DNA of 64,000 nucleotides, taken from positions 62,001 to 126,000 of the forward strand of contig JAFXEB010000033.1 of assembly GCA_017521025.1 (NCBI GenBank), read 5' to 3'. The position numbers and the translations under genes are program-made. Shown here one piece after another: positions 36,494-62,334 of this stretch. The stretch is from Clostridia bacterium. Lineage in GTDB: Bacteria > Bacillota > Clostridia > Oscillospirales > CAG-382. The notes below the pieces were generated by a model that had not been told where the DNA came from, made no database searches, and saw nothing but the letters and a program-made list of their open reading frames with translations. Each line of letters opens with the position of its first letter. Within the stretch, counting starts at the first letter, position 1.

Positions 36494-36974
36494 AGCAGGT
36501 GCATCAAAGACCAACGCTATGAGAATGCTGGACGAGGCAGGCATAGAGTACAGGGCAATGGAATACGAATGGAGCGAGGATGACCTTTCGGGCATAAAGG
36601 TTGCCACCGCCATAGGTCTGCCCTGTGAGATGGTGTTTAAGACCCTTGTGGCTGTGGGCGACAAGACGGGGCATTGCGTTTTCTGCATACCCGCCGACGG
36701 GGAGCTTGACCTTAAAAAGGCAGCCAAGCACAGCGGAAACAAGCGGGTTGACCTGTTGCCCGTAAAGGAGCTGCTTCCTACTACGGGCTATATCAGGGGC
36801 GGTTGCTCCCCTATCGGGCTGAAAAAGCCTTTTCCCGTTTATTTTGACGAGACCTGTATTTTGTTTGACGAGATAACGATCAGCGCAGGCGTGAGGGGTA
36901 TACAGCTTCTTATTAATACCGAGGCACTGCTTAGATTTACGGGAGGCAAGGAATGTCCTCTTACTATGGAGTAA
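36483..36974 (+). CDS. ybaK: Cys-tRNA(Pro)/Cys-tRNA(Cys) deacylase, YbaK/EbsC family
   Basis: The 163-residue editing-domain protein has TNAMRMLDEAGIEYRAMEYEW at the N-terminus, the conserved EMVFKTLVAVGD (about 52-63) with the catalytic Lys, and YIRGGCSPIGLKKPFPVYFDE in the C-terminal half. YbaK removes Cys mis-charged on tRNA(Pro). The start codon overlaps the DUF1836 end by 11 bases and its 3' end overlaps yhcC by 22 bases, so all three are translationally linked. Confidence 0.92.
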   Translation: MASKAGASKTNAMRMLDEAGIEYRAMEYEWSEDDLSGIKVATAIGLPCEMVFKTLVAVGDKTGHCVFCIPADGELDLKKAAKHSGNKRVDLLPVKELLPTTGYIRGGCSPIGLKKPFPVYFDETCILFDEITISAGVRGIQLLINTEALLRFTGGKECPLTME

Positions 36975-37828
36975 ACGAGTATTTTCGCCGCCGTTTTGGA
37001 TGCAAGGTGTATAAGCTTGCCCTTGACGGCGGCTTTACCTGCCCAAACAGAGACGGTACCTTGGGATACGGAGGCTGCATATTCTGTCTTGAGGGCAGCG
37101 GCGCTTTTGCAGAAAGGACGGCAGAGAGCATTCACGAGCAGATAGAGCGTGCAAAGCTGAGAGTGAAGGCAAAAGCCGGCAAGGACGCAATGTATATCGC
37201 CTATTTTCAGTCATACACAAACACCTACGCACCCGTGGAGCGGCTGAGAGAGATATATATGCCTATCGCCGACAGATCAGATATCGCCGCAATATCTATT
37301 GGCACACGTCCCGATTGCCTGCCGCCCGAAACGGTAGAGCTATTGAGCGAGCTTAACAAGATGAAGCCTGTTATTGTGGAGCTTGGTCTGCAGACCGTAC
37401 ACGAAGAGTCTGCTGAGTATATACGCCGCCGCTACCCTCTTGAGTGCTACAACGACGGAGCACAGCGATTGAGGAGTGCGGGGATAGAGGTGGTTACTCA
37501 CGTAATTTTAGGTCTCCCAGGTGAAAGCGAGGAGATGATGCTGGAGACTGTGCGCCACGCCTGCAAATACAGCAACGGAATAAAGCTACAGCTTTTGCAC
37601 GTGCTGGAGGGCACAGACCTTGCCGAGGACTACAGAGCGGGTCTGTTTGAGGTGATGACCCTGCCACAATACGTGGCGCTGATCAAGCACTGTGTAGATA
37701 TTATTCCCGATGACATTGTCATACACCGTCTTACGGGCGACGGCGACAAGAAACATCTTATAGCGCCTCTTTGGAGCGGCGACAAAAAGCGTGTGCTTAA
37801 CGCCATTACAAAAGCGCTTGCAGAATAA
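36953..37828 (+). CDS. Radical SAM protein, YhcC/TIGR01212 family
   Basis: The 291-residue enzyme has FGCKVYKLALDGGFTCPNRDG and then GGCIFCLEGSG, giving the variant cluster motif CxnCxxC (Cys 29, 41 and 44) typical of this Elp3-like family. Later segments are SIGTRPDCLPPETVELL and VVTHVILGLPGESEEMM. The in vivo reaction is unknown. It is the last gene of the operon and is followed by a repeat-rich intergenic region. Confidence 0.9.
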   Translation: MSSYYGVNEYFRRRFGCKVYKLALDGGFTCPNRDGTLGYGGCIFCLEGSGAFAERTAESIHEQIERAKLRVKAKAGKDAMYIAYFQSYTNTYAPVERLREIYMPIADRSDIAAISIGTRPDCLPPETVELLSELNKMKPVIVELGLQTVHEESAEYIRRRYPLECYNDGAQRLRSAGIEVVTHVILGLPGESEEMMLETVRHACKYSNGIKLQLLHVLEGTDLAEDYRAGLFEVMTLPQYVALIKHCVDIIPDDIVIHRLTGDGDKKHLIAPLWSGDKKRVLNAITKALAE

Positions 37829-37890
37829 GGAATATATCGGGCATATTAACGCAGAAAGCACGAACCAAGGTGCCAGCCGTACTGAGTACG

Positions 37891-38039
37891 GAGCCGAGGT
37901 TCGTTCAAAGCAAAAATTATACAAAAATACGTGCAAGGGACGGCAAAGCGCCGTCCCTTGTTTCATCTTAAACCAAATAATATTCAATTTTTGTTGAACC
38001 AAATAATATTCAATTTTTGCGCTCTACGCAAATTTCACC
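37891..38039. repeat. Intergenic repeat, copy A (149 bp, with internal 26-bp tandem duplication)
   Basis: This stretch matches 38972-39094 nearly base for base, from GAGCCGAGGTTCGTTC to ACGCAAATTTCACC. It holds a strong hairpin (CAAGGGACGGC with GCCGTCCCTTG, about 37933-37960). Copy A is longer because the unit AACCAAATAATATTCAATTT is present twice (37971-37996 and 37997-38019). A short palindrome, CCGTACT-G-AGTACGG, abuts its left side (about 37877-37891). Confidence 0.85.
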
Positions 38040-38444
38040 ACTTCAGACCTCGTAGCGAGGGAAATATGTGTAGATTGGACGAACCGACCCCGAAGCTGTA
38101 CTAAGTACTGCGAGTTTTCGGTGTACCGTTTATATCGTGTAATATCGTTGAAAATTATTAATTTTTTCATTTCAAGTAATCTTCTTATAACTCTAAATCA
38201 ATCAAAAGGATGCTTTACTCTTTTAATAATCTTCATAACCCTAATTACTCTATGTTTAAGACAAAGAGTCATAATCCTTATATAATCATCATGATTAATA
38301 AGAGTCTTATATAAAGAAAAAGAGTCATAACGATTCTATAAAGAATCATAATGGCTCATAATACTTGTGTGCTTTTCATCAAAAATATTGTAATTTCATG
38401 GAATCATGTTATAATAAAAATATAAAGAAACGGAGGTATGAATA
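38040..38444. other. AT-rich spacer with short repeated motifs
   Basis: About 400 bases without a credible gene. It contains a GTACT-A-AGTAC palindrome (about 38096-38106) and, from about 38200, many TCATAA/GAGTC words repeated in both orientations. Base composition is far richer in A+T than the flanks. No RNA gene was recognised. Confidence 0.5.
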
Positions 38445-38801
38445 ATGGCAAAGGAAAAAATCAATTTACGGGACGAGTTGAAAGCTCACAAATTTGAATT
38501 TGATTTGTTGCAAAAAATTCCATGCACAAAACAAGAGAATAAGGAATACCAAAAGTTGTTGAAAGATGGCGGTACTCTTCCAGAGGGTGTTTATGCTTAT
38601 GTTTATGATAGTGGCGAAACATCAACAACAGAATTCTATACAATTTATGAAACTGACTTAACAGAATCTGAAATAAGAGAGTATCTTACATATAAACAAT
38701 TAAGTCTTATTAGAACAATAAAAAATTGTGTGATGTTCTTTACCGTTCTGACTATAATTGGAATGATTGCATACTTATTGATTATGATGAATGCTTTTTG
38801 A
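38445..38801 (+). CDS. Small membrane protein in an AT-rich islet
   Basis: The 118-residue protein starts after CGGAGG. Residues 1-90 are soluble and charged (LLQKIPCTKQENKEYQKLL; SGETSTTEFYTIYETDL), and one TM helix follows at about 97-116. No family is recognised. Codon use is strongly AT-biased compared with the genes on either side. The gene lies between two copies of an intergenic repeat, which points to acquisition from elsewhere. A terminator follows at 38821. Confidence 0.65.
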   Translation: MAKEKINLRDELKAHKFEFDLLQKIPCTKQENKEYQKLLKDGGTLPEGVYAYVYDSGETSTTEFYTIYETDLTESEIREYLTYKQLSLIRTIKNCVMFFTVLTIIGMIAYLLIMMNAF

Positions 38802-38820
38802 TTTGACATAACATACAAAA

Positions 38821-38937
38821 AGGGCTATGACATTTGTGTGTCATAGTCCTTTGAAAATAACTTGCACCAAGTTTACACCAAATGAAAAATTAGAGCAAAA
38901 GTAAAACCCCGAAAACCGTGATGGTTTCGGGGTTTTT
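38821..38937 (+). terminator. Two successive intrinsic terminators
   Basis: AGGGCTATGACA (38821-38832) pairs with TGTCATAGTCCT (38839-38850). AAAACCCCGAAAACC (38903-38917) pairs with GGTTTCGGGGTTTTT (38923-38937). Confidence 0.75.
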
Positions 38938-38971
38938 GATGTTCTTGAAATAATACAGATTATCTCTGCGA

Positions 38972-39094
38972 GAGCCGAGGTTCGTTCAAAGCAAAAATTA
39001 TGTAAAAATACGTGCAAGGGACGGCAAAGCGCCGTCCCTTGTTTCATCTTAAACCAAATAATATTCAATTTTTGCGCTCTACGCAAATTTCACC
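38972..39094. repeat. Intergenic repeat, copy B (123 bp)
   Basis: This is the second copy of the 37891-38039 repeat in the same orientation, with one AATATT-containing unit instead of two and about two substitutions near 39001. The hairpin CAAGGGACGGC/GCCGTCCCTTG lies at about 39015-39041. Confidence 0.85.
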
Positions 39095-39103
39095 GCTACG
39101 AGA

Positions 39104-40387
39104 TTAGCCCATGGCGTGGGTGAGATAATCCCCCCCGCTCGCCAGATTGTACTCATACTCCGCTACGGTGAGCTTGATACAGCAGCTAAGCACCTTTGCA
39201 GCCTTCTCGATATCTGCGAGAGGTGGGAAGGTGGGAGCTATACGCAGGTTGCTGTCGTTGGGGTCCTTGCCGTAAGGGAAGGTAGCGCCTGCGGCGGTAA
39301 GCGAAAGACCTGCATCGGCGGCAAGCTGAACAAGGCGCTTTGCACAGCCGTTGGGCAAATTAAGGCTTATAAAATAGCCACCGTTGGGACGTGTGTAATG
39401 AACGCCCTCAAGCTTGTTTATACCCTGACGGTCAAACTCACTGATTACTGCATCAAACTTTGGCTTGATAATGGCTCTGTGGCGCTTCATATGCTCGAAA
39501 AGGCTTTCCTTAGTGGGGAAAAGCTTTGCGTGGCGAAGCTGGTTGAGCTTATCGAAGCCGATGGTCTGGAAAGCAAGCTGCTTGGTAATGCTCTTTATAT
39601 TTGCCTCGCTGGATGCCATAGCCGCAAGACCCGAGCCGGGGAAGCTTATCTTAGAGGTAGATGTAAACTCGAAAAACATATTCTCGTTACCGTACTCAGC
39701 GGCAAGAGACAGTATCTCGGGGATGGTGTCGGGTGTGTCGGAAAGGTCGTGGATAGCGTAAGCGTTGTCCCAGAACACACGGAAATCCTTAGCCTTGGGC
39801 TTAAGGGCCGCAAAACGGCGGCATACGTCCATAGAATAGGTAACGCCGGAGGGGTTGCCGTACTTAGGCACGCACCAGATGCCCTTGATGGTCTCGTCCT
39901 CACCCACCAGCTTTTCAACCAAATTCATATCGGGTCCGTCATCCATCATAGGTACCTTTATCATATTGATGCCGAAATACTGACAGATGGCAAAATGTCT
40001 GTCATAGCCGGGGACGGGACACAAAAAGCTTATTTTGCCGTACTTTGACCAAGGCTTTTCACTGCCGATAACGCCGCTGAGCATAGCTCTTGCCATGGTA
40101 TCGTACATCATATTAAGGCTGGAGTTGCCGCCGACAATGATCTTCTCGGCAGGTACGCCGAGGATATCGGAGAAGATGCGCTTTGCCGCAGGGATACCGT
40201 CAAGTATACCGTAGTTACGGCAGTCGATACCGTCGCTTACGCAATCCTCTTTACAGGAAAGCACGCCAAGCAAAGGCTCCATCATATCAAGCTGTTCCTT
40301 GGCAGGCTTGCCACGGGTCATATCCAGCTTTAGTCCTAAGGCCTTGTAGCCTTCATATTCTTGTCTAAGTTCTGCAAGGGTTTTCAT
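39104..40387 (-). CDS. Aspartate-type aminotransferase (class I PLP enzyme)
   Basis: The 427-residue PLP enzyme has LDMTRGKPAKEQLDM at the N-terminus, PVPGYDRHFAIC, the cofactor and substrate strand YGNPSGVTYS, and the Schiff-base Lys in FTSTSKISFPGSG (about 250). YTRPNGGYFISLNLP lies in the C-terminal domain. The pattern matches the subgroup Ic aspartate aminotransferases (PF12897-like). It follows asnS by 33 bases on the same strand, linking aspartate metabolism to asparaginyl-tRNA charging. Confidence 0.88.
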   Translation of the reverse strand: MKTLAELRQEYEGYKALGLKLDMTRGKPAKEQLDMMEPLLGVLSCKEDCVSDGIDCRNYGILDGIPAAKRIFSDILGVPAEKIIVGGNSSLNMMYDTMARAMLSGVIGSEKPWSKYGKISFLCPVPGYDRHFAICQYFGINMIKVPMMDDGPDMNLVEKLVGEDETIKGIWCVPKYGNPSGVTYSMDVCRRFAALKPKAKDFRVFWDNAYAIHDLSDTPDTIPEILSLAAEYGNENMFFEFTSTSKISFPGSGLAAMASSEANIKSITKQLAFQTIGFDKLNQLRHAKLFPTKESLFEHMKRHRAIIKPKFDAVISEFDRQGINKLEGVHYTRPNGGYFISLNLPNGCAKRLVQLAADAGLSLTAAGATFPYGKDPNDSNLRIAPTFPPLADIEKAAKVLSCCIKLTVAEYEYNLASGGDYLTHAMG

Positions 40388-62200: not shown

Positions 62201-62334
62201 GCAAGGCTTCGGGGCAGGGTGAGATTCCCTACTGGCGGTAAAGTCCGCAAACGTGCGTCTTATATGGCGGCGCACGCCGACTCGGTGCAAGTCCGAGACC
62301 AACGGTTACAGTCCGGATGGAAGATGGCTTTTGC
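62201..62334 (+). promoter_or_regulatory. FMN riboswitch (RFN element)
   Basis: The conserved RFN blocks appear in order: TTCGGGGCAGGGTGAGATTC (62209-62228), CTGGCGGTAAAGTCCGC (about 62233-62249) and AGTCCGGATGGAAGATGGC (62310-62328). The first and last parts pair as stem P1 (GCAAGGC with GGCTTTTGC). It precedes a terminator and a riboflavin transporter gene, so FMN should lower transporter expression by termination. Confidence 0.93.

Follow-up and report, generated by a model that had tools for sequence, protein, structure and literature searches.

The AT-rich islet that lies between two near-identical repeats in this Clostridia genome is most probably (about 0.83 in our estimate) a minimal integrase-less integrative element, i.e., a CIME-like cassette that carries one cargo gene, depends on a recombinase supplied elsewhere and occupies a secondary site. 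The element spans 851 bp (38115-38965), with the 7-bp core CTGCGAG on either side, and its two ends belong to a family whose members adjoin the 3' end of rpsI in other genomes. The window, which is the whole analysed stretch of 64,000 nucleotides, is located on contig C24 of the host genome G000, a 1.64-Mb draft that is 85.7% complete (86% in round figures) and in which repeats are prone to misassembly.

Insertion into a Pre-Existing Dispersed Repeat

The islet is found between a radical SAM gene (36953-37828, forward strand; Pfam PF04055/PF16199) and a convergent gene of the aspartate aminotransferase family (39104-40387, reverse strand; PF12897). The direct repeats described in the initial annotation were recovered as two segments of 98% identity, one of 103 nt (37891-37993 and 38972-39074) and one of 46 nt (37997-38042 and 39052-39097), with the palindrome CAAGGGACGGC...GCCGTCCCTTG present in both copies (37934-37960 and 39015-39041). 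The two repeats differ in length, 149 versus 123 bp, because copy 1 contains an extra 26-nt tandem duplication. The AT-rich character of the intervening DNA also holds, with a G+C content of 0.24-0.35 between the repeats (repeat parts excepted) against 0.49 in the whole window.

These repeats do not coincide with the ends of the element, which are located inside repeat copy 2. Tandem copy 1 (37850-38042, forward strand) comprises the hairpin GTACTGAGTAC / GGTTCGTTC, the palindrome and the internal duplication, while copy 2 is divided into a left part (38043-38107, forward strand), followed by the left core or attL (38108-38114, forward strand), and a right part containing the second palindrome (38973-39103, forward strand), preceded by the right core or attR (38966-38972, forward strand). 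Deleting the 851 bp while retaining one core joins the flanks into an ordinary repeat copy, and this reconstructed empty site can be aligned with other copies without a break at the junction, e.g., over 224 nt at 81.7% identity with the tandem array near C24:56096-56316. Since the islet was inserted in the second of two tandem copies, it seems to be bracketed by repeats. Thus, the earlier view of an element bracketed by its own repeats is not supported, the repeats being a pre-existing target made of two tandem copies of an unrelated dispersed sequence, and neither is the suggestion of recombination between dispersed repeats, as the ends are a 7-bp core within the second copy.

The 211-base repeat query gave 28 BLAST matches in the own genome at E ≤ 1e-3, including the two at this locus, a number well beyond chance, so the search for further copies recommended initially shows that the repeat is not confined here. 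Read by eye, its architecture combines a hairpin, GTACTNAGTAC, that has GACGAACC/GGTTCGTTC on its two sides, with a terminator. The copies, both those of this locus and those at the own-genome loci L003-L028, are modular and roughly 200 bp long, with a terminator stem that varies between copies and similar arms; they are often in tandem, and several are found near contig ends. A second repeat, AAGCCTTCCCCTTGAGGGGAAGGGGGACCGACGGAGTCGGTGGATGAGGTGTAG, occurs in the same intergenic neighbourhoods, near copies at L004, L005, L007 and L013. The congeners G003, G004, G005 and G006 show matches to the first part of the repeat.

The dispersed and dyad-bearing nature of the repeat, the presence of a copy on each side of the islet and a core duplication open to interpretation as a target duplication would all suit a composite unit, in which a transposase that recognizes the ends of the repeats moved the islet together with both copies. 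However, the islet ends inside copy 2, tandem repeats without any islet are present on C2, C24, C26 and C20, and the relatives of the islet in other genomes adjoin rpsI, which makes this explanation highly improbable. Taken alone, the 7-bp duplication would also fit a transposase; the family ends, for their part, are indicative of a tyrosine recombinase whose gene lies elsewhere and not of a transposase. Both junctions bear the core of the target, whereas plain strand exchange over a mismatched overlap should, unless followed by repair, leave one core of each kind; mismatch repair, or an earlier site with an identical core, is a possible cause.

The comparison with close relatives proposed in the initial annotation was possible in two congeners, G001 and G003, in which the flanking genes are adjacent; no adjacent pair was found in the remaining congeners searched. 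Neither of the two has the islet: G001 shows a short intergenic region at this locus, and in G003, what reads by eye as another copy of the repeat family is present. The repeat flanks, together with the repeat relatives carried by congeners, leave some room for an import of foreign DNA by homologous recombination between repeat copies, with the islet already inside the repeat. We judge this very unlikely, since it merely moves the question and an insertion into the repeat would still be needed; moreover, no islet match was obtained for G001-G006 among the matches listed, and the own genome holds one copy of each element end.

Ends, Modules and Cargo of the Element

Both ends of the element are of the family type and adjoin a CTGCGAG core, so that both att sites are present. 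The left end, TTTTCGGTGTACCGTTTATATCGTGTAATATCG (38115-38152, forward strand), carries ATATCGTG-type iterons and reaches 41.7 bits on a profile built from 55 left ends at the rpsI site, while the next place in the window scores 8.0 and five shuffles gave at most 11.2. The right end consists of the terminal bases of an rpsI 3' end of foreign origin (GATTATCT; 38958-38965, forward strand), and the same side of the element carries, within 38903-38965, a terminator of the rpsI type together with these bases. Nevertheless, the window copy is not located at an rpsI 3' end but in a dispersed repeat between other genes.

Next to the left end lies a conserved AT-rich module (38163-38361, forward strand), supported by an alignment, which contains a repeated RGASTCATAA motif and a conserved dyad (38322-38357) and is 84-93% identical in genomes of other families. 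The dyad was considered as an RNA structure and rejected, as none of its 14 predicted pairs shows a double-sided change; since it lacks covariation, it is taken as a DNA site. A known RNA inside the islet was likewise rejected: at gathering scores, the sole known RNA in the window is an FMN riboswitch elsewhere (62201-62332).

The cargo gene (38445-38801, forward strand) encodes a 118-aa protein of no known family, without a match in Pfam, PHROG or NCBIfam and with a C-terminus that looks hydrophobic by eye. This is the single sizeable non-overlapping ORF of the element, in agreement with the one small gene reported initially. Downstream, two terminator-like hairpins account for the two extra terminators of that description, the first around GGGCTATGACA/TGTCATAGTCC (about 38819-38852) and common to relatives, and the second an element-borne terminator of the rpsI type, AAAACCCCGAAA/TTTCGGGGTTTT (about 38903-38936), which adjoins rpsI in relatives. 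The paired repeat TTGCACCAAGTTTACACCAAA (38862-38882, forward strand) provides putative arm-type sites. No integrase, relaxase or transfer gene is found in the window element, whose one sizeable ORF matches no family. The initially proposed insertion by a non-autonomous element is supported.

Distant homologues of the cargo protein (37-40% identity) in G011, G035 and G052 give no clue to its function, and their loci show no cassette-end motifs, only isolated ATATCGTG octamers far away. A phage or plasmid origin was rejected, since the element (865 bp in this search) had no blastn match in phage and plasmid collections; the left-end pattern had no exact match in viral contigs.

Relatives of the Modules in the Order

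Within the 295 genomes of the order, the left 306 bp match 8, own genome included, and the right 181 bp match 24; several of these 24 are covered over the rpsI terminator only and were left out of the cassette count. Sequences adjoining rpsI in G010, G035, G040, G081, G204 and G293 show 79-90% identity to the right end, which lies beside the rpsI 3' end in G010, G035, G040, G081, G227 and G293. Both end modules also occur together in G293 and G227, where they surround other genes, encoding an AMP-binding enzyme and a zinc-ribbon protein, and in G242 the left module is followed by a gene for a transglutaminase-like protein. In G242, G034 and G143, the right side meets what we take to be the 3' end of lysS, a name given from LysS C-terminal residues. 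The AT-rich left module, being found at both rpsI and apparent lysS ends, is thus common to two site specificities. The same module was also observed at an apparent lysS 3' end at L068 (in tandem), L118 and L125, with arm repeats that read TTTGTCGTAAATGTGTCGTAAATC or nearly so.

The cargo has a near relative in G040, where a 605-bp stretch next to rpsI, which contains the gene, the terminators and the arm repeats, shows 90% identity and the same compactness. The cargo genes of this pair share 91.9% nucleotide identity, whereas their rpsI genes share 74.3%. The G040 copy matches the window from about 38337 onward only and does not carry this left end. Indeed, no window-type left end was seen at nine loci related by module or right end (G293, G227, G242, G234, G040, G010, G081, G034 and G143), and the window is the single case seen that combines this left end with the AT-rich module. 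The AT-rich left module was not found in any autonomous element. In the kin of the host, 34 rpsI 3' regions were examined and the end was recognized in 20 (one of them, G037, doubtful); a window-type left end was seen in none. Judged by the right end, 2 of 40 relatives (G010 and G035) carry such cassettes, and the family is patchy within this kinship.

A Family of Compact Cassettes at rpsI

Arm-repeat loci were found in 21 of 394 genomes, with none in the reversed-pattern control, and they display a left end consisting of a displaced rpsI end, TTATCTCTTGGAG, followed by TTTTNNNNNNACCGTTTGATATCGTG. Some arm-repeat matches, e.g., in G008, look unrelated. Scanning public contigs with GAGTTTTNNNNNNACYGTTTGATATCGTG returned 55 matches, spread over 53 contigs whose titles all name MAGs of Clostridia, Clostridiales or Oscillospiraceae, the named hosts being ruminants. 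The rpsI 3' end precedes every left end (55/55; 51 exact and 4 with one mismatch). Because the GAGTTTTNNNNNNACYGTTTGATATCGTG pattern held part of the core, the search was repeated without it, and this core-free pattern, allowing up to one mismatch, matched 50 of 394 genomes against 17 of 394 for the reversed control. Among the 30 loci returned, all 11 with iterons lie at the rpsI core and all 19 found elsewhere lack an iteron. The window copy is the only case of secondary-site insertion found. The core-free pattern misses the window's own left end, which is one base short, and diverged secondary-site copies may likewise escape it.

Out of the 55 left ends, 21 could be traced to the next core, delimiting complete cassettes of 710-1694 bp (median 1030), which end at rpsI in 17 cases, at a tandem neighbour's left end in three and at a variant core in one (L210). 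Tandem cassette arrays are seen in relatives. A single ORF of at least 60 aa is present in 14 of the 21 cassettes and two in the other 7; about 4.4 kb separate iteron and rpsI at L168, and longer cassettes may exist. The Pfam scan of the cargo covered 16 of 37 distinct leading ORFs, and 12 of these 16 had a match at E ≤ 0.01, namely three GNAT acetyltransferases, two HTH proteins and a CDP-alcohol phosphatidyltransferase, a YbjQ protein, a nucleotidyltransferase, a HIT protein, an EamA transporter, an LRR protein and a DUF3784 protein. In G293 (L116, 4337-4625), a duplicated rpsI end was observed around a small insert of ~270 bp that is apparently gene-less, like a microCIME.

Several cassettes are far more similar to each other than their hosts' rpsI genes. 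L178 and L184 are 98.8% identical over 606 bp with rpsI at 73.8%, L175 and L184 are 98.7% identical with rpsI at 75.6%, and L175 and L178 are 95.2% identical over 941 bp with rpsI at 77.5%. Two more pairs, with no rpsI to compare, reach 95-96%; two pairs with L214 show 83-87% identity, and two pairs with L173 have only about 320 bp at 83% in common. In the two pairs that were profiled, the left core marks a jump in identity from 48-78% to 96%, and on the right the similarity declines in the terminator region.

Possible Source of the Integrase

None of the 21 complete cassettes encodes an integrase, as judged by motif and by tblastn with the integrase of G412. In this genome (L220, L256), a cassette is in tandem with a larger element that encodes a tyrosine recombinase (PF00589), a 64-aa excisionase-like protein (a weak match, E 0.0034), ArdA and a PF01719-PF00910 protein; the larger element is not delimited because its far end is off the contig. 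The terminator hairpin of the G412 integrase, searched as a 14-nt motif alone with up to two mismatches, recurs in 11 of the 21 complete cassettes, or in 10 once L222, whose context does not fit, is discounted. Moreover, G214 holds a remnant of an integrase C-terminus beside rpsI (75% identity over 94 aa with one stop, or 82% over 79 aa). Retained integrase terminators (10/21, by motif) and this remnant form the pattern expected if the cassettes were deletion derivatives, with descent from an IME or ICE, and we read the family as minimal, integrase-less, CIME-like derivatives of rpsI-specific integrative elements. The own genome has three integrase matches, each about 27% identical to the G412 integrase. 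In G254 (L112/L132), a truncated tyrosine recombinase 36% identical to that of G412 lies beside rpsI and points toward it, with AACATCAA-type repeats, and perhaps represents a second rpsI-specific lineage.

The derived look of some cassettes, as if produced from integrase-bearing elements by internal deletion, and the integrase remnants in G214 and G254 could also be taken as favouring decay in place, i.e., a larger integrative element inserted at this very locus and reduced to two ends and one gene. Nevertheless, the G040 copy is equally compact at rpsI and sister cassettes are compact in unlike genomes, and hence this alternative is unlikely. A cassette that was already minimal when it arrived remains the preferred reading.

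A Possible Route to the Secondary Site

The rpsI of the host differs from the usual target at its core, which reads CTTGCTG instead of CTTGGAG, while the CTGCGAG of the islet differs from CTTGGAG at two positions. The rpsI end TTATCTCTTGCTG is present in G000, G001, G003 and G006, and in G012 and G027 of other genera; within two mismatches it was not recognized in G004 and G005, and G002 has no rpsI match. The host's own rpsI showed no cassette end.

From these sequence comparisons, a route may be proposed in which a tyrosine recombinase from a co-resident rpsI-specific element of the G412 kind would excise the cassette at the rpsI of another species, although excision and transfer are inferred steps. 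The cassette would then enter this host, perhaps alongside a mobilizable element, and insert by strand exchange with a 7-bp overlap at the secondary site CTGCGAG, the canonical site presumably being unavailable as the own rpsI carries CTTGCTG. At rpsI, a cassette restores the gene end, since it brings promoter-like sequence, a terminator and the rpsI terminator; at the secondary site, it would merely interrupt a repeat.

A broader and tentative view, somewhat doubtful in our opinion, is that uncultured gut Oscillospirales run an integron-like gene exchange based on ordinary double-stranded att sites, in which a large pool of ~1-kb one-gene cassettes, all equipped with a promoter of their own and a copy of the rpsI or lysS end, is moved in trans between families by the integrases of mobilizable elements specific for rpsI or lysS, with a mutated rpsI core diverting cassettes to chance core-like sites, e.g., the hairpin repeat of this locus. 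If movement between families with a borrowed integrase is true, such cassettes would be a simple means of moving single genes within gut communities, and they can escape annotation because none of their genes resembles a mobile-element gene. The window copy could also serve as a natural experiment in att-site choice, in which the core of the host has changed and the element is found at a secondary core with two mismatches.

Comparison with Known Systems

Integron gene cassettes are one-gene mobile units that are moved by a tyrosine recombinase acting in trans and form arrays at a fixed site. The cassettes described here resemble them in these three respects, but differ in that the att sites of the family are of the double-stranded type, with repeats, and are located at the end of a ribosomal gene, and no integron integrase was seen.

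Another parallel is provided by streptococci, for which CIMEs, rpsI-specific IMEs and tandem accretion have been described (PMC5704250, PMC5357655, PMC7563491), with composite structures known from the rpsI 3' end of Streptococcus salivarius (PMC7563491, PMC5704250). As described there, streptococcal CIMEs keep attL and attR, have lost recombination and transfer genes, carry cargo, undergo tandem accretion and include the rpsI 3' end among their targets. Both att sites, a cargo gene and the lack of recombination and transfer genes are found again in the window element, and tandem arrays and the rpsI 3' end in its relatives. Streptococcal CIMEs measure 1.2-13 kb (gene-less microCIMEs, 130-220 bp) and were detected only beside ICEs or IMEs (PMC7563491, PMC5704250). 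By contrast, our cassettes have 0.71-1.69 kb, 14 of 21 hold a single ORF, some are common to genomes whose rpsI genes are 74-78% identical, and the window copy occupies a secondary site.

IMESag-rpsI and other rpsI IMEs use a tyrosine integrase and the rpsI 3' end, as in the G412 relative (PMC5704250, PMC5357655), and the PF01719-PF00910 domain pair has been proposed as a type of IME relaxase (PMC7563491). The window element differs from such IMEs by the lack of an integrase, an excisionase-like protein, ArdA and a PF01719-PF00910 protein. Moreover, the McRImecD islands of Macrococcus caseolyticus likewise have a tyrosine recombinase, the rpsI 3' end as a site and a displaced rpsI end at the far side, but comprise 16-18 kb with an integrase and other genes (PMC5341023). 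A putative ICE integrated at rpsI in R. hominis A2-183 is mentioned in a 2026 paper (PMC12904643). One-gene rpsI cassettes in these bacteria did not appear among the open-licence matches listed, a set outside of which most subscription journals fall. The window element represents a known kind of element in compact form.
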